A DNA stretch of 64,000 nucleotides from a bacterium (GTDB lineage Bacteria; Armatimonadota; JACIXR01): contig JACIXR010000001.1 of the NCBI GenBank assembly GCA_014360495.1, forward strand, positions 124,001 through 188,000, given 5' to 3'. Below, in pieces: positions 11,960-46,108 of the stretch. The notes beneath the pieces were generated by a model. It did no database searches, had not been told where the DNA came from, and worked only from the letters and a program-made list of their open reading frames with translations. Position 1 is the stretch's first letter. Every line of letters begins with the position of its first letter. The translations under genes were made by a program, and so were the position numbers.

Positions 11960-14365
11960 TCACTTCCTTTCCTGGCGGATATTAAGGAGAGAGCCAAGCT
12001 TGTCAATTCTAAAATATCTTCCCTCAATGGATACCTCCCCAGTCCAATCAAATTGGGGGAGGGCGAAAACGATTGAGTGTTCGTTCTTTTTGAAGGGCAC
12101 GAGGGTTAATTGTGCATCTTTCATAGGGTGGCAAAGGACATTAACCCCGGAATTTTTCAGGATTTTCAACAATTTATCAAGCTTGGGCAGCGGAACGGAG
12201 GGAAAGCTCTGTGTGCAGATGAGGCGGGGAGGTGTGTTCCCTTTATCTTTCAATCTGAAAACCTCACCCAAGCTTTCCCTACCGATGGATTCCTCAAAAC
12301 GATGGCTTAGTTTGGGCAAAGAACTTGGTTCAATTTTTCTTCCAGTCATATCGTAGAGGGCAAATCTTCCGGAGCTAATCAATTTAACCCCCGCCAGTGA
12401 GGCTTTTCTTAAAGCCTCAAGGGCTTTATATGTTATATAGGCGCAGTCGGGAATTATGACTGCTTTATATAAGGACAAATCAGCCTTTTCCAAGGCGTGA
12501 ATTGTATAGATATCTGGGCAGATTCCAGCCCTCACGAGCAGCTTATACCATCCCATAAAATCGGCGTAGTCGTTTGGTGGTTGAGGGAGATAGGGGTAGA
12601 GCGGCATTCTCGGCTGAACGAGAGCTACCTCGCATATCGGTTTGAAACCCTTAAGAAGCGAGGCGGTCTTTTTCACTCTGTCAATCATCCTTTTCAACGA
12701 ATCTATGCCAAGCTCTGAATAATTGTAATCAGGTGTTCCATACCAGCAGTAATATTGGATTCCGCTTTCGGAGCCAGAATGTTGAAGAACGGAGAGGGAG
12801 GTTCTTGTCAAACCATCTTCCCCCAAATATGTCCCTTTCGTAAAGTCAAGAAGGTCAATAGCCCAAATTGGCTTTCCGTAGCGGCGGACGGAGTCAATCG
12901 CCGCTGTAAGGGAATCAAAATCTCCTTCGGCTGAATTTATCTGCATTCCCAGAATTGTTTGATGTTTCGCGTTCTCAACCCAATAATCAAGCGCTATAGC
13001 GACATCTTGGGCGTAATCCCACTCAAAGGGATTTGCGAAAGCGAAGGTAAGATAACTTAGCACAGGGCGATTCGGGTCTGCTATTTGGCATTCCTCCGCC
13101 ATCCAATCTATGAATTGGGCGAAGTTCTCAAAACGATAGTTGAACCAGTCATCTATCATAGCAAGTGGAAATTCGGGGTTTCCTTCAAGGGAAATCTTTG
13201 GTTGGTAGGTGATGCTCATTTCCCCTCGCGATTTCCATTGATGGGAAAGGTTTTCACTCTGCTCAACTGACCAAGCTATGAAGACCCATTTACCCAATGC
13301 AGGGTCAAGAAAGGGGTTGGGGGCAACGTCGTTCCCTTCTTCGTCAAATATGCGAATGGATTGAAAAACTACCTTTCCCGTTCCCATTAACTTCATTAGG
13401 AGCCAGGCTTTAGCGGAGGAGGAAGGAACGGTCAAACTGAATTTAATAATTCCTCTGCCGTTGGATTGGATGAAAGGAGGGCTCCAATCGGACTTAAAGG
13501 GTTTAGGGTTATCCTTTGAAAGCCAAGCCACTTCAAGGAAAACTTCTCCTATCAAGTTTTCCGTACTCAATTCAAGATAGAAAGTTAGCTTTTCGCCTGG
13601 TTTGACATTTATATGGCTCTCCTCATTTGTTGCCCAGCAAATGTCGCTGTAGGCGCTGGCGGGCATAAAACACCCCTGTGGCTCTCTTCCAACTCCAAGA
13701 GGATAGAGAGTTGGTGGTTGGATTTCCTGCCAGTCTTTAAATCCAGTACCCCAGCTGTCGTTTAGCGCTTTCAGGGAAGGATATTTATTCCTCAACCATT
13801 CTCTGAAGCCATTTTTGTCGCACTTGGAATAAGAATAAAGAATGGGATGCCACCATTCGCAGCCGTTGCTGTAGCCGTAAATGTATTCAGCGTATTTGTG
13901 ATGGGAGAGATAGCCAATCGTGTTGCGTATGAAGCGGGAAAGATATGAGCGGTAAGTTTCCGATTGATATGAAGGGTCATCTATTATATCTCCTTTAGCT
14001 GAACACATGGTTTCCCCTTGACTTTTCAGCTTTTCCACAAGCCAGCGGACACCGGCCGCATGGGCTGGCCCAGCTTCCATCAGATAGACGAGTTTTATTC
14101 CCGTTTCCTTAGCCCATTCAAGCTGTCTGTCAAGGAGCGAGAAATCCCATTTATCCTCCTCTGGTTCTATCAATGCCCAGGGGGCTCTCACTATGCAGAC
14201 ATTGGCACCAATGCGGGGGATTTGTTCATCCTGATGAACGATAAGCGGGTAGTGGGAGACGAAGCCGATTGGGTAGTCAACATTAAACGGTTGGGCAAGA
14301 AGCAAATCACATAAGAAAGGAATAAGCAAGTTTTTCACTTGGCGAGGAAAGGCGAAGTTTTTCAT
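11960..14365 (-). CDS. GH42-like beta-galactosidase-type protein with inserted beta-sandwich
   Basis: 801 residues. The N-terminus (KNLLIPFLCDLLLAQ) is a probable signal peptide. The barrel resembles GH42/clan A: ANVCIVRAPWALIEPEEDKWDFSLLD (about 53-78), GYSNGCEWWHP where clan-A enzymes carry NE, and KYPSLKALNDSWGTGFKDW, the block that usually follows. A sugar-binding-like insert (about 235-385) splits the barrel. The usual acid/base Asn-Glu reads SNGCEWW, so activity may be altered. After the barrel come a Rossmann-like trimerisation domain (YKAVIIPDCAYIT) and a beta-sandwich. A GGAGGGG site lies 18 bases upstream of the ATG. Confidence 0.68.
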   Translation of the reverse strand: MKNFAFPRQVKNLLIPFLCDLLLAQPFNVDYPIGFVSHYPLIVHQDEQIPRIGANVCIVRAPWALIEPEEDKWDFSLLDRQLEWAKETGIKLVYLMEAGPAHAAGVRWLVEKLKSQGETMCSAKGDIIDDPSYQSETYRSYLSRFIRNTIGYLSHHKYAEYIYGYSNGCEWWHPILYSYSKCDKNGFREWLRNKYPSLKALNDSWGTGFKDWQEIQPPTLYPLGVGREPQGCFMPASAYSDICWATNEESHINVKPGEKLTFYLELSTENLIGEVFLEVAWLSKDNPKPFKSDWSPPFIQSNGRGIIKFSLTVPSSSAKAWLLMKLMGTGKVVFQSIRIFDEEGNDVAPNPFLDPALGKWVFIAWSVEQSENLSHQWKSRGEMSITYQPKISLEGNPEFPLAMIDDWFNYRFENFAQFIDWMAEECQIADPNRPVLSYLTFAFANPFEWDYAQDVAIALDYWVENAKHQTILGMQINSAEGDFDSLTAAIDSVRRYGKPIWAIDLLDFTKGTYLGEDGLTRTSLSVLQHSGSESGIQYYCWYGTPDYNYSELGIDSLKRMIDRVKKTASLLKGFKPICEVALVQPRMPLYPYLPQPPNDYADFMGWYKLLVRAGICPDIYTIHALEKADLSLYKAVIIPDCAYITYKALEALRKASLAGVKLISSGRFALYDMTGRKIEPSSLPKLSHRFEESIGRESLGEVFRLKDKGNTPPRLICTQSFPSVPLPKLDKLLKILKNSGVNVLCHPMKDAQLTLVPFKKNEHSIVFALPQFDWTGEVSIEGRYFRIDKLGSLLNIRQERK

Positions 14366-32546: not shown

Positions 32547-33404
32547 TTATCTTGTTCTTCCTCCCATCATACCACCGCCTGCTGGCATATTGCCACCCAT
32601 AGCGGCTCCACCGCCTGCTGGCATATTCCCTCCCATTGGCGTTCCTCCTCCACCCATTGGTCCCTTCATTGTTCCCACCATTGGTGGCATACTGCCTCCA
32701 CCCATCATCCCGGGCATGCCCATCATCCCCGGCATACCCATCATTCCTGTAGGCGCTGCGCCAGCTGCTGGAGCAGGTGCAACCTCACCACCCTTAGGGA
32801 AATAATAAACGGTCAATGGGAAGGAGGCGGTAACGGGACTAGGACCGGTTATGCTGAGGCTGGGTAGGAGCGCTACGCGAGGGAATTTCGGCATCTTATT
32901 TCTAAGGAAATTGAGGAGAGCGGGGAAGGAAGCCATTACGGAGTAATTGCCGAGACTAATGGTGTAAATATCAGAGGGAATGGCGGAGGGGTCAGTTGGT
33001 GGAGGGGAAACCTGAACCGGATTGAGGAGGATGACGCCGGAATTCTTAAAGAAATCCTCTACCTTTTTGCCAAGCACCTTGTTGTGCTCAGTCCATAGGG
33101 TGAACATAGCCTTCATTCTATCTTTTAGGTCTATGGGAATCATTTTTGTTTTCTCATAATAAGCTAGTTTTGCTTCCTCTTTTACTTTTTCCTCTTTCGC
33201 TTTCTTAAGGTCTGCTTCTGCTTGTGGTCTTTGATTAACTATCGCTTGTGTATCTTGCAGTTGCTTTTGAAGGGCAGAGAGCGTTCTATAACTGGGGCGG
33301 ACTAGGAGGAAGAACATTGCTCCTGCAAATATGATGAATGCCAACAGCCCAGCAATTAGAACCTGTTGTCTTGTTAGCCTCTCTAACCTTATCATCATAA
33401 TCAC
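32547..33404 (-). CDS. pilO: type IV pilus assembly protein PilO
   Basis: 285 residues. One N-terminal membrane helix (VLIAGLLAFIIFAGAMFFLLV) is followed by a coiled coil (about 40-85), a periplasmic ferredoxin-like domain (about 90-205, YSVMASFPALLNFLRN) and a Met/Gly/Pro-rich tail of about 75 residues with repeats such as GMPGMMGMPGMMG. PilO pairs with PilN in the alignment complex of the pilus machine. Its start overlaps the end of pilN by four bases. The tail is absent from classical PilO. Confidence 0.85.
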   Translation of the reverse strand: MIMMIRLERLTRQQVLIAGLLAFIIFAGAMFFLLVRPSYRTLSALQKQLQDTQAIVNQRPQAEADLKKAKEEKVKEEAKLAYYEKTKMIPIDLKDRMKAMFTLWTEHNKVLGKKVEDFFKNSGVILLNPVQVSPPPTDPSAIPSDIYTISLGNYSVMASFPALLNFLRNKMPKFPRVALLPSLSITGPSPVTASFPLTVYYFPKGGEVAPAPAAGAAPTGMMGMPGMMGMPGMMGGGSMPPMVGTMKGPMGGGGTPMGGNMPAGGGAAMGGNMPAGGGMMGGRTR

Positions 33405-34447
33405 TCCCCTCCGATTTCTTGCTCCATTTCTCTTCTCTGTTGTAAGCCTGGGAGCCCTCCTCCTCTTCCCTCAGCTGGGGCTTTGGCACCTGGGGCTGCT
33501 TGGGGAGCCCCAGCTTGAGGAAGCGCTCCGGGAGCTCCCATTCCGACCATAGGTGGCATCATCCCGCCAGCGGTGGGGGCTGCAGCTGCTGCAGCTGTGG
33601 GAGGGGTAGGCGGGGTAAGGGGTTCCATAAGGTAGCAAATGACGCTTATGTTTATTGGACCCCCTGCTTGAGATGTCATTCCACCGCTAGCTGGAGGCAT
33701 CATCCCGGGCATTCCTCCCATCATTCCTGGCATTCCACCCATTGGACCCTTACCCATCATCCCTGGCATACCGCCACCCATACCGGGCATAGCACCACCA
33801 GTGGAACCATAACCTGGTATACCGCTTAGCTGAACATCCGCGATTTTGGGGCATCTTAAGAGGTTTTGGAGATATCGGGCAACATCCTCAACGGAATTAG
33901 TAAATCCCTGGATACTAACAGTTCTTATTTCCTGTCCACCTCCACCCGGTCCACCTCCCATCATTCCCGGCATACCGCTCATCATCGGAGGGGCTCCTCC
34001 GCCTGAACCAGGCATACCCCCCATAGAACCCATTGGACCTTTGCCCATCATTCCCATCATTCCCCCTCCAGCCATTCCACCCCCGGAACCCAACTGTAAG
34101 GAGGTATAAGTAACCTTTGCATATGTATAGCGACGAATGGAATCCAAAAGGTCAGCAAGCTTCACAGGAAAATTCATTGTATCCTCAATGAACTTTGTTT
34201 TAGCCTTTATTGGTTCTATCTCCGACCTAATAGTCTGTGCTTCATTTTGTAGATTCTGCACTTCCTGAGCTTGTGCCTTGAGGGTTTCAAGTTCTTGATT
34301 TACCCTGTAGCCTTCTGTTGAGACGCGGTTATACCAGTAGGAGAAAGCAAGAAGCTCCAGCCCGAGGAGGATGAAGACGAGCATCAACAACTTCCTAACG
34401 ATTTTCCTCTCTTTTACGAAGGCTGGTAATAAGTTGATTTTGATCAT
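33401..34447 (-). CDS. pilN: type IV pilus assembly protein PilN
   Basis: 348 residues, versus about 200 in classical PilN. It begins MIKINLLP (the PilM-binding motif at 4-8) and has one membrane helix (LLMLVFILLGLELLAFSYWY). A coiled coil and a periplasmic domain (VSIQGFTNSVEDVARYLQNLL) follow. The domain is split by a Met/Gly-rich insert (about 120-165), and a further Met/Gly/Ala/Pro-rich region fills the C-terminal third. It docks cytoplasmic PilM to the membrane. It lies 19 bases after pilM. Confidence 0.87.
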   Translation of the reverse strand: MIKINLLPAFVKERKIVRKLLMLVFILLGLELLAFSYWYNRVSTEGYRVNQELETLKAQAQEVQNLQNEAQTIRSEIEPIKAKTKFIEDTMNFPVKLADLLDSIRRYTYAKVTYTSLQLGSGGGMAGGGMMGMMGKGPMGSMGGMPGSGGGAPPMMSGMPGMMGGGPGGGGQEIRTVSIQGFTNSVEDVARYLQNLLRCPKIADVQLSGIPGYGSTGGAMPGMGGGMPGMMGKGPMGGMPGMMGGMPGMMPPASGGMTSQAGGPINISVICYLMEPLTPPTPPTAAAAAAPTAGGMMPPMVGMGAPGALPQAGAPQAAPGAKAPAEGRGGGLPGLQQRREMEQEIGGE

Positions 34448-38856: not shown

Positions 38857-39020
38857 AAACCGTGGCAAATTGAACAAGAGGTAGGGTTTAATAACCTTCA
38901 CAGATTAAAATCCTTCAGAATCCTGTTTTATACTGCCTTTCAGCTTCTTCCCAAATCAAGGTAGTCATACCCACATAGCGAGCCTCTCTTTTTATTGAAA
39001 TTTTATTTGAGGAGGCTAAA

Positions 39021-40460
39021 ATGGTGCAAAATCCCGGTATTTTCTTTTCTCCACCCATAGCCCTTTGTTTTTCGGAAACATCCCCAAATAAAAACGCATT
39101 ATATGGGATTGAGATTTTTAAAGCTGGTGTTTATAGAAAAGTGTCCTTTACCCCCGAAGATATCCGCCAAATCGCTGAGAATTTCCCGCTCCTCAAAGAG
39201 AAAGTGGGGCTTGAGGTTCCCATTAAAGTTAACCATACAGACGATGTCAGGGCTGTTGTTGGCTATGTCACTAATGTGTATGAAAAGGAGGGAAAACTTT
39301 ATGCCGACGCCATCATCACTGAGCCTGAGGCTGTGGAGAAAATAAGGCGGGGCACATGGAAAAAGGTCTCCTGCGAGATTTATATGGATTTCGTTGATGA
39401 GGATACTAAAACATCTTACGGGAAGGCACTAAGAGCGATCGCTATAGTAGCCCACCCCCAAGTCAAAAAAGTGAAAGGACTGGAGGTGGCTCGTTTTTTC
39501 GAGAAAATTTCCAATGGAAAGGAGGTGATAGTGATGGCATTGAGGGACACGATAAGTTCGGCTTTTGGATGGCTTTCCGAGCGTTTCAGAAGTCTCGCCG
39601 AAGAGGCGGAAGAGATGGAAGTTGAGAAGTTCGGAGCAGTTCGCCACTCAATGGATTACGCCCTCGTTGAGCAGGCGGAATGGGACGCCGACGCCGCCGA
39701 GATAAGGCTAAGGAAATGGGCGTCCTCTGATGGCTCGGGAGCTAAGGAGACGATTGACTGGGCAAAGTATCGTGAGGGCTTCGCTTGGTTTGACGAAAAC
39801 GACAGGGAAAACTTCACGGCTTATAAGCTCCCCCATCACGATATAGTCAATGGGCGTTTTTCCGTTGTCTGGCGGGGCGTTGTCGCCGCTATGGCGGCGC
39901 TCCAAGGGGCAAGGGGAGGCGTTGATTTGCCCGCTGAGGATAAGGAAGCGGTATATAACCACCTGCGTCGCCATTATGAGGAATTCGGAAGAGAAGCCCC
40001 CGAGTTCGCCGAGATTATGGGGAATACCCCAGTGGAAAACCAAGATAAAGGAGGCGATGAGAAAGTGAAAGAATTTGAGGAAAGAGTCAAAATGCTGGAG
40101 GAGGAGAACGCCCAGCTCAAGGAGAGGATAGCCCAACTGGAAGAGGAACTCCAGAAGAAACTCGCTGAGGAAAAGGAAAGACGGATTTGGGCTATCATCA
40201 ACGGCGCTATTGAAAAGGGCAAACTCCTGCCAGCGGAAAAGGACGCTTGGGCTGAATACCTTCTCCCCCTCGCTGATGAGGAATTGGAGAAGGCGTTAAA
40301 GCTCATTGAGGCGAGACCTTCCCTTGACCTCTTTGAGGAGAAGTCCAAGACGCTATCTCCTGAAGAGGCGGAGGAGAAGGTCAATGAAGAGCTGGCTGAA
40401 AGAATGATCAAATACATCTTTCCCCAAAAGCCAGCTGTAGTTAAGGAAAAAAATAAATAG
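39021..40460 (+). CDS. phage prohead protease / scaffold fusion (Mu I-like)
   Basis: 479 residues. Residues about 26-160 resemble Mu I-type capsid maturation proteases, with possible catalytic His72 in VPIKVNHTDD and Ser117 in WKKVSCEIY. Residues about 205-335 carry a domain often fused to such proteases (FTAYKLPHHDIVNGRFSVV, AALQGARGGVDLPAEDKEAVYNHL). The C-terminal third is a charged coiled coil (about 350-410), as in scaffolds cleaved during head maturation. AGGAGG precedes the ATG. The frame is intact. First gene of an isolated head cassette. Confidence 0.82.
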   Translation: MVQNPGIFFSPPIALCFSETSPNKNALYGIEIFKAGVYRKVSFTPEDIRQIAENFPLLKEKVGLEVPIKVNHTDDVRAVVGYVTNVYEKEGKLYADAIITEPEAVEKIRRGTWKKVSCEIYMDFVDEDTKTSYGKALRAIAIVAHPQVKKVKGLEVARFFEKISNGKEVIVMALRDTISSAFGWLSERFRSLAEEAEEMEVEKFGAVRHSMDYALVEQAEWDADAAEIRLRKWASSDGSGAKETIDWAKYREGFAWFDENDRENFTAYKLPHHDIVNGRFSVVWRGVVAAMAALQGARGGVDLPAEDKEAVYNHLRRHYEEFGREAPEFAEIMGNTPVENQDKGGDEKVKEFEERVKMLEEENAQLKERIAQLEEELQKKLAEEKERRIWAIINGAIEKGKLLPAEKDAWAEYLLPLADEELEKALKLIEARPSLDLFEEKSKTLSPEEAEEKVNEELAERMIKYIFPQKPAVVKEKNK

Positions 40461-40474
40461 GAGGTGATGTTTCA

Positions 40475-40783
40475 ATGGCAACCTTTTTGGCAAGCGGGCA
40501 CGGGCTTGATGCCAGAATACCCATCACCATCGCCAGCGGATATAAACTTACCGCTGGGACGGTGCTGGGCAAGATAACCGCGTCTGGGAAATACGGACCT
40601 TATGACGACACTGCAACGGACGGACGAGAGACCGCTGTGGGCATTCTCGCAGAGGATGTGGACGCCACCAACTCCGATGTCGGCACTTGGATGATCGTTC
40701 ACGGAGTGGTGAAGGAGTCCGCGCTCACGGGGCTTGATGCCAACGCTAAGGCAGACCTCAAAGGGCAGATAATATTCATTTGA
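40475..40783 (+). CDS. phage head decoration protein (lambda gpD-like)
   Basis: 102 residues. ARIPITIASGYKLTAGTVLGKIT, GRETAVGILAEDVDAT and MIVHGVVKESALTGLDANAK match gpD-type decoration proteins that clamp the expanded capsid. AGGAGGTGATG precedes the ATG. It lies between the protease and the major capsid protein, the standard order in lambda-like head modules. Confidence 0.85.
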   Translation: MATFLASGHGLDARIPITIASGYKLTAGTVLGKITASGKYGPYDDTATDGRETAVGILAEDVDATNSDVGTWMIVHGVVKESALTGLDANAKADLKGQIIFI

Positions 40784-40801
40784 AAGGAGGTGAACAAGTA
40801 A

Positions 40802-41791
40802 ATGCCTATTCCTACCATAGCTGATTATCCCCAACTGAGACCGCAGGTTCTCCAGAAGGTCATAGAATCCGCCCCCGCGCCAACGTTCATTGGCTCGGAG
40901 CTCCTACCTGATGAGCCGGATTTCACGGATACTTTCACTTGGGAGGTCTTGGATAGGGGAAGGCAAAGGGCAGGGCTTGTCCCTCGTGATGGGGAAGCAA
41001 GGATAGTCCCATTCGTTCCCCAAGAGGTCAAGACCGCTCCCTCCGCCTTTATAAAAGCCAAGATGCTCCTCGTGGAAAGTATCTTGGAGTATCTGCGCTA
41101 CCCGGGAACTTACGCCGCCGCCGCCGAGAAGCAGGTAGCTGAGGCAGTTTTAAAGCTCAATCGCCAGGTTGACATAGAGAAGGAATGGCTCATAATGACC
41201 GCTCTCTCCACGGGGGCGATCACTTATACCGAAACGGGGGGCTATTCCTTCTCGGTTGACTACGGCGTCCCCAACTCCAATAAGCCGACGGCATCACCAC
41301 TGTGGAGCTCAACATCCACAGCTGATGTCATCGGCAATGTCCTTGCTTGGAAGCAGATAATCGCTGAGAACGGGGGCACGAACATCGTTGGGCTCTGCAA
41401 CTCCACGGTCTTCGGCTATATGATACAGAACGCGGCGATAAGGCAGCTTCTACAGGGCAACATCATCAACCCCACCGATCCCTCCATATTCGCCACCATC
41501 CTCGGGCTTCAGAAACTCTATGTTTACGACGCCGTTTACACCGATTTGGACGGCTCAACGACGGCGAAATTCCTTCCCAATGACAAATTTATCCTTCTGG
41601 CATTAGGGGAGGCTGGCGACCGCTTCGGCGGGTTCCGGCAGGCACCGAGCCTTTACAACAATCACAAGCCCGGCAGGTTCGTTTACACCTCCCAGACGGA
41701 CGACCCTGCTGGAATATGGGTGATAGTTGGCGAGTATGGATTGCCTGTCATCTACCATCCTAACTGGCTTGTGATCGCCGACGTTGCGTGA
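40802..41791 (+). CDS. phage major capsid protein (lambda gpE-like, HK97 fold)
   Basis: 329 residues, close to the 341 of lambda E. It shows DYPQLRPQVLQKVIESAPAP near the N-terminus, a long E-loop region with FIKAKMLLVESILEYLRYPG, and a C-terminal AGIWVIVGEYGLPVIYHPNW. AAGGAGGTGAAC precedes the ATG. The intact frame and good ribosome site argue that the gene is not decayed. No terminase or portal gene is near. Confidence 0.87.
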   Translation: MPIPTIADYPQLRPQVLQKVIESAPAPTFIGSELLPDEPDFTDTFTWEVLDRGRQRAGLVPRDGEARIVPFVPQEVKTAPSAFIKAKMLLVESILEYLRYPGTYAAAAEKQVAEAVLKLNRQVDIEKEWLIMTALSTGAITYTETGGYSFSVDYGVPNSNKPTASPLWSSTSTADVIGNVLAWKQIIAENGGTNIVGLCNSTVFGYMIQNAAIRQLLQGNIINPTDPSIFATILGLQKLYVYDAVYTDLDGSTTAKFLPNDKFILLALGEAGDRFGGFRQAPSLYNNHKPGRFVYTSQTDDPAGIWVIVGEYGLPVIYHPNWLVIADVA

Positions 41792-41825
41792 TAAATAAGG
41801 GCTCGACCGCCTTCCCTTGCTGAGA

Positions 41826-41875
41826 CTCTGGGGAGGGGGTTCTTTCCCTCCTCCTTTCTTGCCCCCTCCCCAGAG
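41826..41875 (+). promoter_or_regulatory. strong intra-operon hairpin whose loop can pair with the next ribosome site
   Basis: Arms 41826-41839 and 41862-41875 form a perfect 14-bp stem (CTCTGGGGAGGGGG). No T-tract follows, so it is not a standard terminator. The 22-base loop contains CCTCCTTTC (41850-41858), the exact complement of GAAAGGAGG (41877-41885) that serves the next ORF. The two pairings exclude each other, which could control translation after the capsid gene. Confidence 0.6.
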
Positions 41876-41890
41876 GGAAAGGAGGTATGA

Positions 41891-42082
41891 ATGAAAGCGG
41901 TTCGCTTTCTTGAGGATTATGCTTTGGGAAAAGGAAAGAAAGCGAAGGCAGGGGATATTTATCTCGTCCCTGAGCCTTTGGCATATTTCCTTGAGGAGCT
42001 GGGCATAGCGGAGCCCGTGATAATGACCGATTATCCATCCGACTATGTTCAGGACTCCACAGGGAAAAAAGCATCCCATTGA
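41891..42082 (+). CDS. small phage head-module protein, copy 1
   Basis: 63 residues, strong AAAGGAGG site. The pattern is VRFLEDYALG, AKAGDIYLVPEPLAYFLEELGIAEPV. It shares this layout with the next two ORFs. Small proteins of this pattern are common beside phage capsid genes; their role is not established to my knowledge. Confidence 0.75.
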   Translation: MKAVRFLEDYALGKGKKAKAGDIYLVPEPLAYFLEELGIAEPVIMTDYPSDYVQDSTGKKASH

Positions 42083-42097
42083 TGGAGGTGGCTTTCA

Positions 42098-42256
42098 TTG
42101 AAAATAAAATTTAAGATGGATTATCTTCTGGGGCGAAACCCCATGAAGCGAGGGGATATCGTGGATGTTCCCGAATTAGTTGCCCGCTACCTTGTTGACT
42201 TAAAGGTGGCGGAGCTCGTCAAGGAGGGCGATAAGAATGAAAAAAGTGAAAGTTAA
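42098..42256 (+). CDS. small phage head-module protein, copy 2
   Basis: 52 residues. TTG start at 42098 after GATGGAGGTGG; it ends at TAA 42254-42256, 20 bases inside the next gene. Sequence blocks FKMDYLLG, MKRGDIVDVPELVARYLVDL and VAELV line up with copy 1 (GDIYLVPEPLAYFLEEL, IAEPV). Charged C-terminal tail. Unknown function. Confidence 0.7.
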   Translation: MKIKFKMDYLLGRNPMKRGDIVDVPELVARYLVDLKVAELVKEGDKNEKSES

Positions 42257-42401
42257 AACCACATTGACGATAGGGCTAAGGAACTATCTCGCAGGGGAAA
42301 TTGCCGAACTTGATGATGACTTGGCGAAGGAGCTTATCGCCTTGGATTTAGTGGAACTCGTGGAAGAGAAAGAGGAGAAAACCAAAAGGAAGGGCAAATA
42401 A
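42237..42401 (+). CDS. small phage head-module protein, copy 3
   Basis: 54 residues from ATG 42237 (AAGGAGGG upstream, inside copy 2). Blocks VKTTLTIG, LAGEIAELDDDLAKELIALDL and VELV match the layout of copies 1 and 2, followed by a Lys/Glu-rich tail. The third of three tandem related genes. Unknown function. Confidence 0.7.
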   Translation: MKKVKVKTTLTIGLRNYLAGEIAELDDDLAKELIALDLVELVEEKEEKTKRKGK

Positions 42402-42458
42402 TGAGCAAATGGGATAAGTTATATGGATACAATGCCCGCCCACGAGGTGATCAATAAA
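42402..42458 (+). CDS. 18-codon ORF, possible coupling peptide
   Basis: ATG 42402 follows the previous stop directly. The ORF encodes MSKWDKLYGYNARPRGDQ and its TAA shares a base with the next ATG. The next gene's AGGTGAT lies inside it. It may be a translational-coupling leader or chance. Confidence 0.25.
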
Positions 42459-42883
42459 TGGCATGGATAACCGAAGCCGATATCAAGCCTTTCATTCACG
42501 ACTGGGATAGCTACGGCTTCACGCTTGACCAGATACAGGGCGCGATAGAGAACGCTGAAGCGAGGATTAAAGACCGTCTCGCCCCCTATTTTACCCTCCC
42601 GGCTGATGATGAGACACCTCCTGCTGGCTTGAAATCCCTTATTGCTCAATACGCCGCTTACCTTTTGATGAGGGCACGCAGAGTGGCGTTGACGGAAACA
42701 GAGGAGGCATGGGTTAGGGAATTGGGAGAGGAAGTTGAAACTATGCTTGACGATATAGTGGAGGGGAAGCGAGTGATCAAGGGCTTGGTGAGGCACGCCC
42801 TTGAGGGCGGGGAGGAGCCATCCCAACTCCACGACCTCGTCGACCCCCTTATTAAGGTTAGAAGTAAACCAGAGAGTGGTTGA
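42458..42883 (+). CDS. phage head-tail connector, gp36/DUF1320-like
   Basis: 141 residues. It opens with MAWITEADIKPFI, has IENAEARIKDRLAPYFTLP, and a helical core with LIAQYAAYLLMRAR, as in gp36/DUF1320 (gp6-like) proteins that bridge portal and tail. Last recognisable gene of the head cassette; no tail gene follows. Confidence 0.72.
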   Translation: MAWITEADIKPFIHDWDSYGFTLDQIQGAIENAEARIKDRLAPYFTLPADDETPPAGLKSLIAQYAAYLLMRARRVALTETEEAWVRELGEEVETMLDDIVEGKRVIKGLVRHALEGGEEPSQLHDLVDPLIKVRSKPESG

Positions 42884-42897
42884 TTTGAACTAATGCC

Positions 42898-43290
42898 TTA
42901 CCTTCCTTCGCTTTTATCTCCATCTTCATAGGAGTAATAATAACCACTGTATACGCAGTGTTGTGTCGAGGCGAATGCGTTATATACCTTCAAAATATTC
43001 TCATCGGGGAAATGAGGATAATTCATTTGGGAATAAGGATGATTCACTTTGACCCTTTTTATCCCTGCCCACAGGAACGAAAGAGCAAGTATCAACAAGA
43101 ATAACCATAAAAGCCCAAAGTAAATAGCACAGCCCCAAAAACTACCAAAAGCCTCAGGTCCAGCAGACCATGCTGTACGCCCCAATTTGTACATACACCA
43201 AAACATATAAAACAACCAAAACAGCCAAATCAAACCAAATATCAAAGAGAAACCAAAAGAAGATGCCTCTGAAAAATTTATTTGGCTCAT
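42898..43290 (-). CDS. small membrane protein of unknown function
   Basis: 130 residues from ATG 43290, chosen over the TTG two codons earlier because GGGTGAT is well spaced. Two hydrophobic segments (SLIFGLIWLFWLFYMFW, GCAIYFGLLWLFLLILALSFLW) flank a short loop. The C-terminal half is polar with several Tyr (VYSGYYYSYED). Opposite strand to the phage head genes. No known family recognised. It is related to the ORF at 43325-43510. Confidence 0.5.
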   Translation of the reverse strand: MSQINFSEASSFGFSLIFGLIWLFWLFYMFWCMYKLGRTAWSAGPEAFGSFWGCAIYFGLLWLFLLILALSFLWAGIKRVKVNHPYSQMNYPHFPDENILKVYNAFASTQHCVYSGYYYSYEDGDKSEGR

Positions 43291-43324
43291 ATTCAATCAC
43301 CCAAATGCAAACAAAAATGCAATT

Positions 43325-43510
43325 TTACCGATGTTTCCTTAGATAACCATAAGCGTAATTTATTTGGTTGCTTTCTTGCAATGTCCTCAACAATAAATTC
43401 CTAGCCATCAACAAGAAAAACCACAAAAGCCCTCTAAACAAAGCTACGCTAAGACATCCACCAAAACCATAAATAGCAGAAATCGACAAAGACTTCCTAT
43501 AATGCCACAT
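43325..43510 (-). pseudogene. truncated relative of the adjacent membrane protein
   Basis: 61 codons. FGGCLSVALFRGLLWFFLLMA followed by NQINYAYGYL aligns with WGCAIYFGLLWLFLLILAL and YSQMNYPHFP of its neighbour. On the DNA, ATCAACAAGAAAAACCAC (from about 43399) differs by two bases from the matching stretch near 43094. The C-terminal domain is missing and no clear ribosome site is seen, so this looks like a decaying tandem duplicate. Confidence 0.45.
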
Positions 43511-43954: not shown

Positions 43955-46108
43955 TTAGTGTCTTGCTCTCCTTTTTCTTTTTTCTCCTCCCTCTTCGTAG
44001 TAATAATAGTAGTAATAATAGTAATATCCGCCGTATCTAGCTCTTCTGACATCCATTTCGTTGAGGACAGCGCCCAATATATTTGCCTTGACATTTTCCA
44101 GCATCTTTCTTGCTTGATTGAGGGCGCTCCTACTTGTGGAATTATACCGGGCGACGATAAGCGCTCCATCGCAAATGGATGAGAGAATCACGGCATCAGC
44201 CATTCCCATAACCAAGGGAGAATCAATGATTACGATATCAAATTTTTGTTTCAATTCCTCTAATACCTCCCTCATTCGCTCTGATTCCAGGAGCTCAGCG
44301 GGATTGGGAGGAATGGGACCGCAGGTTATTGCATATAGGTTATCTATTTCAGTTGGCTTTACGGCTTCCTCCGTGTCGGCTTCTCCCACGAGAAGGTTGG
44401 TCAAACCAACTTCTCTATCCAAGCCGAAGATTTCGTGAACCCTTGGTCGGCGTAGGTCGGCATCTAAGATCAAGGTCTTTTGTCCAGCTTGGGCGAAGGC
44501 TACTGCTAAATTTGCGGATACCGTGCTTTTACCTTCTGAAGGCTCAGGGGAGGTAATAAGGATTGCCTTTAACGGTTTTCCCAAGCCGGCAAATTTGAGG
44601 CTTGAACGAAGAGTGCGGAAAGCTTCCGATGCGTGGGAGCGATGGCTTTCAAGGATAACGAGGCGAGTAGCATTGTTTTCAAAGCGCGGTATAATGGCGA
44701 GAGGTGTTAGCCTGCATCTTCTTTCCAAATCGGCTGGAGACTTAATTGCATCGTCAAAATACTCCGCGAGAGCTCCACTCAACACAGCAAGCGATAAGGC
44801 GAGGATAAACCCAAGTGCATAATTTAACCCTTTTTTGGGGTATATCGGATATTTTGGTAAAGTTGCCATTTCCTCGGCAGTTACATTGCCAAACGTTGTT
44901 GCCTCTGCTATTCTAGCTTCCTGTAGCCTCTGCTGGAGAGTTGTATAGAGGGTTTCAGCAACTTGGACATCCCTTTGAAGATTGACAAATTGCATTTCTT
45001 TCTCAGGAAGACGGGAGAGCTCGCTCTCCAATTCCGATACCAATCTTCTCAGGGCTTCCCTTTTAGCTTCCGCTTTAAGCAAATCAACTTGTGCCATAAG
45101 CAAGTTGTCCCTTAGAGGATTGGGTTGGACATTCTCCTGAAGAGTTGTTTTTTGGGCTTCTCTCTCTATTCTTCCATTTATTTCTTCTATCTGTTTCTTG
45201 GTTGCTATGACCTCTGGGTGGTTATCTGCATATTTTTGCTGAAGTCCTAAAAGCTTCACTTCTAACTCCACGAGCTGTTGGCGTAGGGCGATGAGGGTTG
45301 GGCTTTCACCCAATGTCCAGCTTGCCAATCGTGTTTCTCCTTCTTTTTTCAATTGTTCCTTGAGGTAATCAACGCTCGCCTTATAAGTGTTTATAGAGGC
45401 TTCCGTTTGCTCTAAATCACTTTGGAGGTTTGCCAATCTTTCCACCTTTTTCTTCGTATCCTCCTCAAGGGAGAAGATTCCTTCTTTTTCTTTGAATTCT
45501 CTCAACTTCTTCTCAGCCTCTAATAGCCTTTGATATAACCCCTTTTTCCCTTCCTTTGTATCACCATATAGCTGCTCCTCAATAAATTTGCGAGTAGCAA
45601 CGGCTTCCTTTCTTCCTTCTTCTTGATTCTTATACACCAAAGCATGAGCAATCCCATTAACAATCCACATAGCTTTTTCAGGAGAAGTGCTGTTTGCTTT
45701 TATAAGGATTATCTCGCTTCCCTTCGGAACCTCTAACTTTATATTTCCAGTGCGAGTGAGGTTTTCCATCTCGTCAACAGTGATATCCACTTCTCCCCTG
45801 CTATTGTCTCTGATATATTTAACAGCTTCCTCAAGGTAAGGACGGCTGGTGGCTAATTGCAGATAAGTATCAAGAGAAGCAGAGGGGTAAGCGAAAATCG
45901 TTTGGAGGGGGGATATGAGGGAAGAACTCCCCGGTTGTTGTGTTTTCACTCTTACCTTAGCTATAGCTTGATAAACTTTCTGCCTGGTAATCGTATAACC
46001 GACTACCAAAAACATTACGATACCAAAAACCAAGAGCATAACAGGAAGGCGTCTAAAAGCTATCTCAATATAGTCTCTTAATTCCAATGCTTCTTCTCTT
46101 TCTTCCAA
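43955..46108 (-). CDS. polysaccharide co-polymerase / bacterial tyrosine autokinase (Wzc-like)
   Basis: 717 residues. Wzz domain with membrane helices at about 22-40 and 428-447, and a long periplasmic coiled coil (about 190-400). The BY-kinase domain has Walker A SPEPSEGKST (520-529), Walker A' LDADLRRP (549-555) and Walker B IVIIDSP (625-631). The C-terminus ends with ten consecutive Tyr (695-704) followed by a basic tail, the autophosphorylation cluster. It controls chain length and export of exopolysaccharide. TTG start after AAGGAGG. It points to extracellular polysaccharide synthesis elsewhere in the genome. Confidence 0.92.
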   Translation of the reverse strand: MEEREEALELRDYIEIAFRRLPVMLLVFGIVMFLVVGYTITRQKVYQAIAKVRVKTQQPGSSSLISPLQTIFAYPSASLDTYLQLATSRPYLEEAVKYIRDNSRGEVDITVDEMENLTRTGNIKLEVPKGSEIILIKANSTSPEKAMWIVNGIAHALVYKNQEEGRKEAVATRKFIEEQLYGDTKEGKKGLYQRLLEAEKKLREFKEKEGIFSLEEDTKKKVERLANLQSDLEQTEASINTYKASVDYLKEQLKKEGETRLASWTLGESPTLIALRQQLVELEVKLLGLQQKYADNHPEVIATKKQIEEINGRIEREAQKTTLQENVQPNPLRDNLLMAQVDLLKAEAKREALRRLVSELESELSRLPEKEMQFVNLQRDVQVAETLYTTLQQRLQEARIAEATTFGNVTAEEMATLPKYPIYPKKGLNYALGFILALSLAVLSGALAEYFDDAIKSPADLERRCRLTPLAIIPRFENNATRLVILESHRSHASEAFRTLRSSLKFAGLGKPLKAILITSPEPSEGKSTVSANLAVAFAQAGQKTLILDADLRRPRVHEIFGLDREVGLTNLLVGEADTEEAVKPTEIDNLYAITCGPIPPNPAELLESERMREVLEELKQKFDIVIIDSPLVMGMADAVILSSICDGALIVARYNSTSRSALNQARKMLENVKANILGAVLNEMDVRRARYGGYYYYYYYYYYEEGGEKRKRRARH

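Follow-up and report, generated by a model that had tools for sequence, protein, structure and literature searches.

The window analysed here is a 64-kb stretch of an Armatimonadota genome (positions 124001-188000 of contig C1 in G000, a genome of 2.55 Mb in 18 contigs, 97% complete), which carries a phage head cassette at positions 39021-42883. Comparison with two other genomes of the same genus, G001 and G002, identifies this cassette, hereafter locus A, as one of at least five conserved loci and not a stray piece of prophage. Together these loci probably make up a dispersed, phage-derived system, kept by the host, for the production of particles resembling gene transfer agents (GTAs), with the cassette as its head locus. 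The resemblance is one on paper, membership being judged from the genes alone.

Locus A comprises seven genes, all open and all on the + strand. The first (39021-40460) encodes a head maturation protease/scaffold of 479 aa (PHROG 976, 3.6e-34); between its protease and coiled-coil scaffold parts lies an extra conserved domain (residues ~205-330, ...AYKLPHHDIVNGRF...WRGVVAAMAAL...), which phages have too. The genes that follow specify a 102-aa head decoration protein, gpD (40475-40783; PF02924, 6.9e-24), a 329-aa major capsid protein of the E type (40802-41791; PF03864, 9.8e-32; PHROG 29, 6e-52) and three small proteins of 63 aa (41891-42082; PHROG 829, 6e-5, with homologues on phage contigs), 52 aa (42098-42256, TTG start, similar to the preceding one) and 54 aa (42237-42401). 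The three are mutually similar, which refines an earlier note on this DNA. The last gene (42458-42883) encodes a 141-aa gp36-like (DUF1320) head connector. Its match to PF07030, at 22.5 bits, falls just below the cut-off of 24.7 bits, and that to the PHROG 195 connector is 0.002; despite this weak match the identity is supported by the position of the gene and by an 88%-identical copy in phage u, a temperate relative described below. Shine-Dalgarno-like GGAGG sequences precede most of the starts. The seven-gene cassette with strong ribosome sites described in the earlier note is intact, every named gene being present. Its statement that portal, terminase, tail, lysis and integrase genes are missing from the window was equally borne out: when phage proteins of these kinds were compared with the 64 kb by tblastn, the cassette was the sole match.

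The capsid gene is single-copy in G001 (81% identity) and G002 (79%), and the cassette is open in both, the G002 contig stopping within gp36. The right flank of locus A (a tyrosine-kinase gene and beyond) is common to G000 and G001, and the left flank (a Fur-like gene) to G001 and G002. Since each side is thus shared by two species, the cassette was most likely at its present place before the three split. The tsaB-rimI genes, next to which the earlier note had placed the cassette, lie to its left in G000 only; this neighbourhood, correctly described for G000 but not a general setting, is most likely a later rearrangement in that genome.

The missing packaging genes were found elsewhere in the genome, where the earlier note had suggested looking for them. 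A second phage module on the G002 cassette contig led to locus B (G000:C8:54113-61156), which is present in all three genomes and contains a sigma-like gene, terminator-like, tail-tube-like and chaperone-like genes, a 171-aa gene, genes for an Ig/fn3 protein and an amidase, small genes, two holin-like genes and TerL. TerL belongs to the Terminase_6 families: the G002 orthologue matches Terminase_6N/6C, the motifs are conserved, and the PF03354 terminase model gave no match. In each of the three genomes, the TerL gene and a DUF6785 gene overlap by 4 nt at their stop codons. The tail-tube-like protein yielded a low-confidence structure model (pLDDT 60) for which tail-tube and terminator folds ranked near the top (best E 4e-3), including the GTA structures 6tba/6toa, a match that is supportive only. 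The fast-evolving 171-aa gene sits at the position of a tape measure and is a positional candidate only. The sigma-like lead gene shows similarity to sigma-70 region 4 above the Pfam cut-off; relative to the structural genes it is divergent in G002 and co-oriented in G000. Beside it, upstream of locus B, are GCAACAAA / AAAAAGGCAA repeats (L028 ~14000-14113, L030 ~270-436, L011 ~13762-13900), a possible operator.

A search with the Mu-type portal family detected exactly one portal gene in each of the three genomes. Here, at locus C (G000:C1:301316-302515), the portal is a solitary gene, 134 kb away from locus A in G000; in every species it is convergent to the same LolA-like gene, with one extra gene intervening in G002. 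The three portals form one clade, separate from phages. The phage-particle genes of G000 are therefore spread across 134 kb and more than one contig, unlike those of a functional temperate prophage, which would form one contiguous element with integrase, repressor and a full morphogenesis set; the scattered loci have no integrase, replication gene or repressor next to them. A capsid match in a further genome, G055 (30%, L013), was set aside because it lies on a phage-like contig of its own.

Capsid, TerL and portal are single-copy and intact in 3/3 genomes of the genus, and among the species compared the genes of loci A, B and C contain no internal stop and no frameshift that we could find. 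Identities among the three species are 79-81% for the capsid, 77-79% for the portal, 77-80% for the tail tube and 67-77% for TerL, within the range of the flanking host genes (56-82%). The NG86 method gives dN/dS values of ~0.08 (capsid), 0.10 (tail tube) and 0.12-0.16 (protease); genes of 171, 136 and 128 aa are fast-evolving. The marks of a decaying remnant (frameshifts, relaxed selection, patchy presence) were looked for in the three genomes and not found, all genes being open in each. Synteny and capsid dN/dS in relatives, the comparison proposed in the earlier note, thus favour retention, and the two findings it had named as fatal, a complete prophage split by misassembly and decay in relatives, were both sought and did not turn up.

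An 8-bp element, GGTAGTCA, lies at 38960-38967 on the + strand, 61 nt upstream of the protease start. Comparison of upstream regions showed it to be exact at this distance in all three species and to recur upstream of the portal in all three (54 nt in G001, 56 nt in G002 and roughly 55-67 nt in G000, a range that reflects an uncertain start codon). Neither phage u nor the sister contigs examined contain it. The motif was spotted after the fact and defined on loci A and C only. It occurs 33 times in G000, or ~6.5e-4 per 100-nt same-strand upstream window, and shows no genome-wide enrichment there (33 vs 38 for a reversed control), so that its weight lies in position and conservation. Screening the copies for conserved downstream genes disclosed two further loci. 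Locus E (G000:C8:92482 onwards), a lone gene of putative phage tail type, encodes a protein of 649 aa (648 aa in G001, cut by the contig end in G002) and has GGTAGTCA 38-40 nt upstream in all three genomes; the protein is 63% identical to one encoded after the holins in phage u. As the motif had been defined on loci A and C alone, locus E provides independent confirmation of it. Locus D (G000:C8:105413-108115) consists of genes for 215-aa and 684-aa proteins, conserved in all three genomes and preceded by GGTAGTCA in the two that could be evaluated; by elimination, the 215-aa protein is a candidate, and only that, for TerS. PHROG, Pfam and PDB searches with the proteins of loci D and E returned nothing decisive. 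A −10-like box behind GGTAGTCA did slightly better than shuffles, a margin inflated by relatedness, and is not claimed.

Scans of viral contigs with the capsid and TerL alignments recovered IMGVR_UViG_3300035198_000132, here phage u, and four shorter contigs; a portal scan gave no match. Phage u is a complete temperate phage in which the structural genes of the scattered loci form one cluster in canonical order. Its genes, named by position and similarity, specify a CI-like repressor, a serine recombinase, TerL, portal, MuF, protease, gpD, E, connector, terminator, tail tube, chaperone, a 520-aa tape measure, an Ig protein, gpG, amidase and holins. Its small head genes are interrupted by an inserted gene for a Dam-type DNA methylase (L045 11307-12161; phage u 12981-13835). 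MuF and the tape measure were found in none of the three genomes, and gpG in G002 only. The G000 proteins are 93% (TerL), 88% (gp36), 85% (capsid), 83% (amidase) and 81% (Ig protein) identical to those of phage u, and the window's protease/scaffold is 75% identical to the phage u copy, 67% to that of G001 and 65% to that of G002. Portal (56-60%) and tail tube (32-35%) set phage u apart from all three species, and unrooted trees still allow the genus to be one clade. These uneven distances point to genes having passed between phage and chromosome in the lineage of G000.

A parallel system was detected across the phylum. Portals were present in 133 of 291 Armatimonadota genomes, mostly in single copy. 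A tree of 71 of them required 12 changes of family label, the minimum possible (shuffled mean 42), and grouped 58 sequences of eight families apart from phages and from the window's genus; this was a quick tree, in which long branches are flagged as unsure. The portal neighbourhoods range from isolated TerL-portal pairs (families f13 and f32) and a portal alone (f33) to compact TerL-portal-protease-capsid clusters (f17, f38, f39). The matching capsid (PHROG 371) occurs in 125/291 genomes, 102 of which also have the portal (Fisher p 5e-28, uncorrected for relatedness). Capsid and portal may lie up to 1 Mb apart, as seen in single-contig genomes (2.69 and 1.67 Mb in G172, 2.84 and 1.80 Mb in G171, 1.25 and 0.49 Mb in G115). 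A protease - structural protein - capsid cassette was present in 18 of the 20 head loci examined, the other two, both of f8, having structural protein and capsid only; tail-tube and tape-measure profiles, which are narrow, matched nothing in these 20 loci. The PHROG 371 capsid is absent from the window's genus, which has the E-type system instead. The parallel system follows host taxonomy, is likewise split and is not orthologous to the window's system at the head. In a few genomes of other families its portal, capsid or TerL is interrupted by a single in-frame stop or frame break (L087 9123-12771; L095 6295-7284; L131 7530-8825), through decay or assembly error.

GTAs are classed as viriforms whose proteins stem from a caudoviricete ancestor, which form caudovirion-like particles and are fully endogenized, often at multiple loci (PMC9662315). 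They are further described as mostly vertically inherited and co-diversifying with the host, as packaging mostly random host DNA in particles too small for their own genome and as delivering it to other cells (PMC9662315). In the window's genus, capsid, gpD, protease, portal and TerL match phage families, and the genes occupy five loci, three of them with host flanks common across species. As to vertical inheritance, synteny and the portal clade agree with it, G000 TerL and head genes lie nearer phage u, and in view of the exchange with phage it may hold only in part.

If the loci do form such a system, some cue would act through a regulator to switch them on together, the sigma-like protein of locus B being the natural candidate on account of its region 4 similarity. 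Protease, gpD and E would assemble heads on the portal, TerL would load cellular DNA into these, the particle would be completed by gp36 together with a short tail, and holin and amidase would lyse the cell. Because the genes are scattered and have neither an integrase nor a replication gene nor a repressor next to them, the particles should be unable to carry the full gene set, and packaging of all of it by one particle is implausible.

Several observations weigh against a GTA-like system. The G000 versions of TerL, capsid, gp36, Ig protein and amidase resemble those of phage u more closely than their G001 and G002 orthologues, so that inheritance appears not to have been purely vertical. No tape measure, MuF or sure TerS was recognized among the G000 loci; exact GGTAGTCA is not at locus B, and locus D is joined to the system by the motif alone. 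Furthermore, dS is saturated for several genes, including TerL and most portal pairs (dN 0.13-0.27), and the genomes are metagenome-assembled (MAGs) with contig breaks, as where the G002 cassette reaches a contig end.

Among the other explanations, the one that fares best, while still unlikely, is a phage particle kept by the host for another use, for example as a DNA container with a short tail or none, or to interfere with phage u by means of decoy or poisoned capsids. It would account for the closeness to phage u, the apparent exchange with it and the missing tape measure; retention of TerL, portal, tail-tube-like, amidase and holin-like genes, unneeded for interference alone, argues against it. 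The same retained genes disfavour the domesticated empty compartment that the earlier note had offered as one origin. Its GTA-like alternative gains from the intact single-copy portal and terminase elsewhere and from a layout common to three species, and its recently arrived fragment is not supported, the insertions being bordered by the same genes in species only ~70% identical in DNA. Ordinary prophage remnants, scattered by rearrangement and intact through recency or chance, appear improbable on similar grounds. All the genes are phage-derived, some evolve fast, MuF and the tape measure are missing and a complete phage of the same type exists, but this explanation is largely refuted by conservation: three species share the insertion points, every gene is open, dN/dS is low and the loci have in common an upstream element not seen in phage u. 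A capsid-forming satellite using the tails of phage u, suggested by head genes without a tape measure and by the existence of a helper-like relative, is very improbable, the genes being scattered over more than one contig and having the same host neighbours in each of the three species, with no integrase or replication gene nearby. An encapsulin-like nanocompartment evolved from the capsid is scarcely credible: the cassette alone could form a shell, but the same genomes keep a portal and a TerL with conserved motifs, and whereas an encapsulin gene sits beside a cargo gene, without DNA-packaging genes, no cargo enzyme gene adjoins this capsid gene, whose neighbours are gpD and small phage genes.

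With a dispersed GTA-like system as the preferred reading of the window's genus, the two systems of the phylum may be considered jointly. On a view that we hold with no more conviction than its opposite, GTA-like production would be old and general in the phylum: one system with a PHROG 371 capsid, its head and portal/TerL loci unlinked, would have passed down with the host in many families, and in the window's genus an E-type phage would have given rise to an independent replacement that has its own GGTAGTCA regulon and still exchanges genes with a living relative among phages.

Some features near the cassette were recorded in passing. In G000 alone, two mutually similar small membrane-protein reading frames (42898-43510, − strand) lie between it and the kinase gene, which in G001 follows within 10 nt of gp36. 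The kinase (43955-46108, − strand; chain-length regulator type) ends in ten consecutive tyrosines and a basic tail, the tyrosine run being longer than ten in the G001 orthologue. Farther left, a PilN-like protein with long Met/Gly-rich low-complexity inserts (33401-34447, − strand) adjoins a PilM-like gene.

The literature searched contained no report of a GTA in this phylum. A hot-spring study listed 'incomplete' prophages of 7-14 kb in each of three Fimbriimonadales MAGs (PMC8597652), and a genome paper described a real 45.5-kb Fimbriimonas prophage (PMC4072686). In the passages found in a GTA review, GTAs are named only in Alphaproteobacteria, Brachyspira, Desulfovibrio and Methanococcus, and the question is raised whether distant GTAs are outliers or prevalent in their clades (PMC11841831). 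A split packaging system that follows taxonomy across a phylum would, if real, settle this question in the case of that phylum and extend the range of GTA head types by two. Phage u would be a living relative showing the steps of domestication (loss of integrase, MuF and tape measure, scattering, acquisition of a common upstream element), and the conserved GGTAGTCA offers a direct handle for locating missing genes and probing co-regulation.

Among known systems, RcGTA (Rhodogtaviriformidae, Alphaproteobacteria) likewise has phage-derived structural and packaging genes at several loci, five in R. capsulatus (PMC9662315). It is vertically inherited, as the window's system may be in part, and its regulator GafA has tentative sigma-like DNA-binding regions (PMC9638019), comparable to the candidate regulator of locus B. 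The window's system differs from it in its lambda E/gpD head, in having portal, TerL and capsid each at unlinked loci, in belonging to an unrelated phylum and in being known from genes alone. The RcGTA capsid is of the HK97 type. VSH-1/BhGTA (Brachygtaviriformidae) resembles the window's system in a genome likely dispersed over multiple loci; this genome likely co-diversifies with its host (PMC9662315), which belongs to a different phylum. Phage u has all structural genes in common, but keeps them in canonical order in a single cluster that also contains repressor, serine recombinase, MuF and tape measure, and it lacks GGTAGTCA. The parallel system of the phylum shares the isolated head cassette and the separate portal or TerL-portal pair, mostly in single copy, and is distinguished by its PHROG 371 capsid family and by a portal that falls in another clade.

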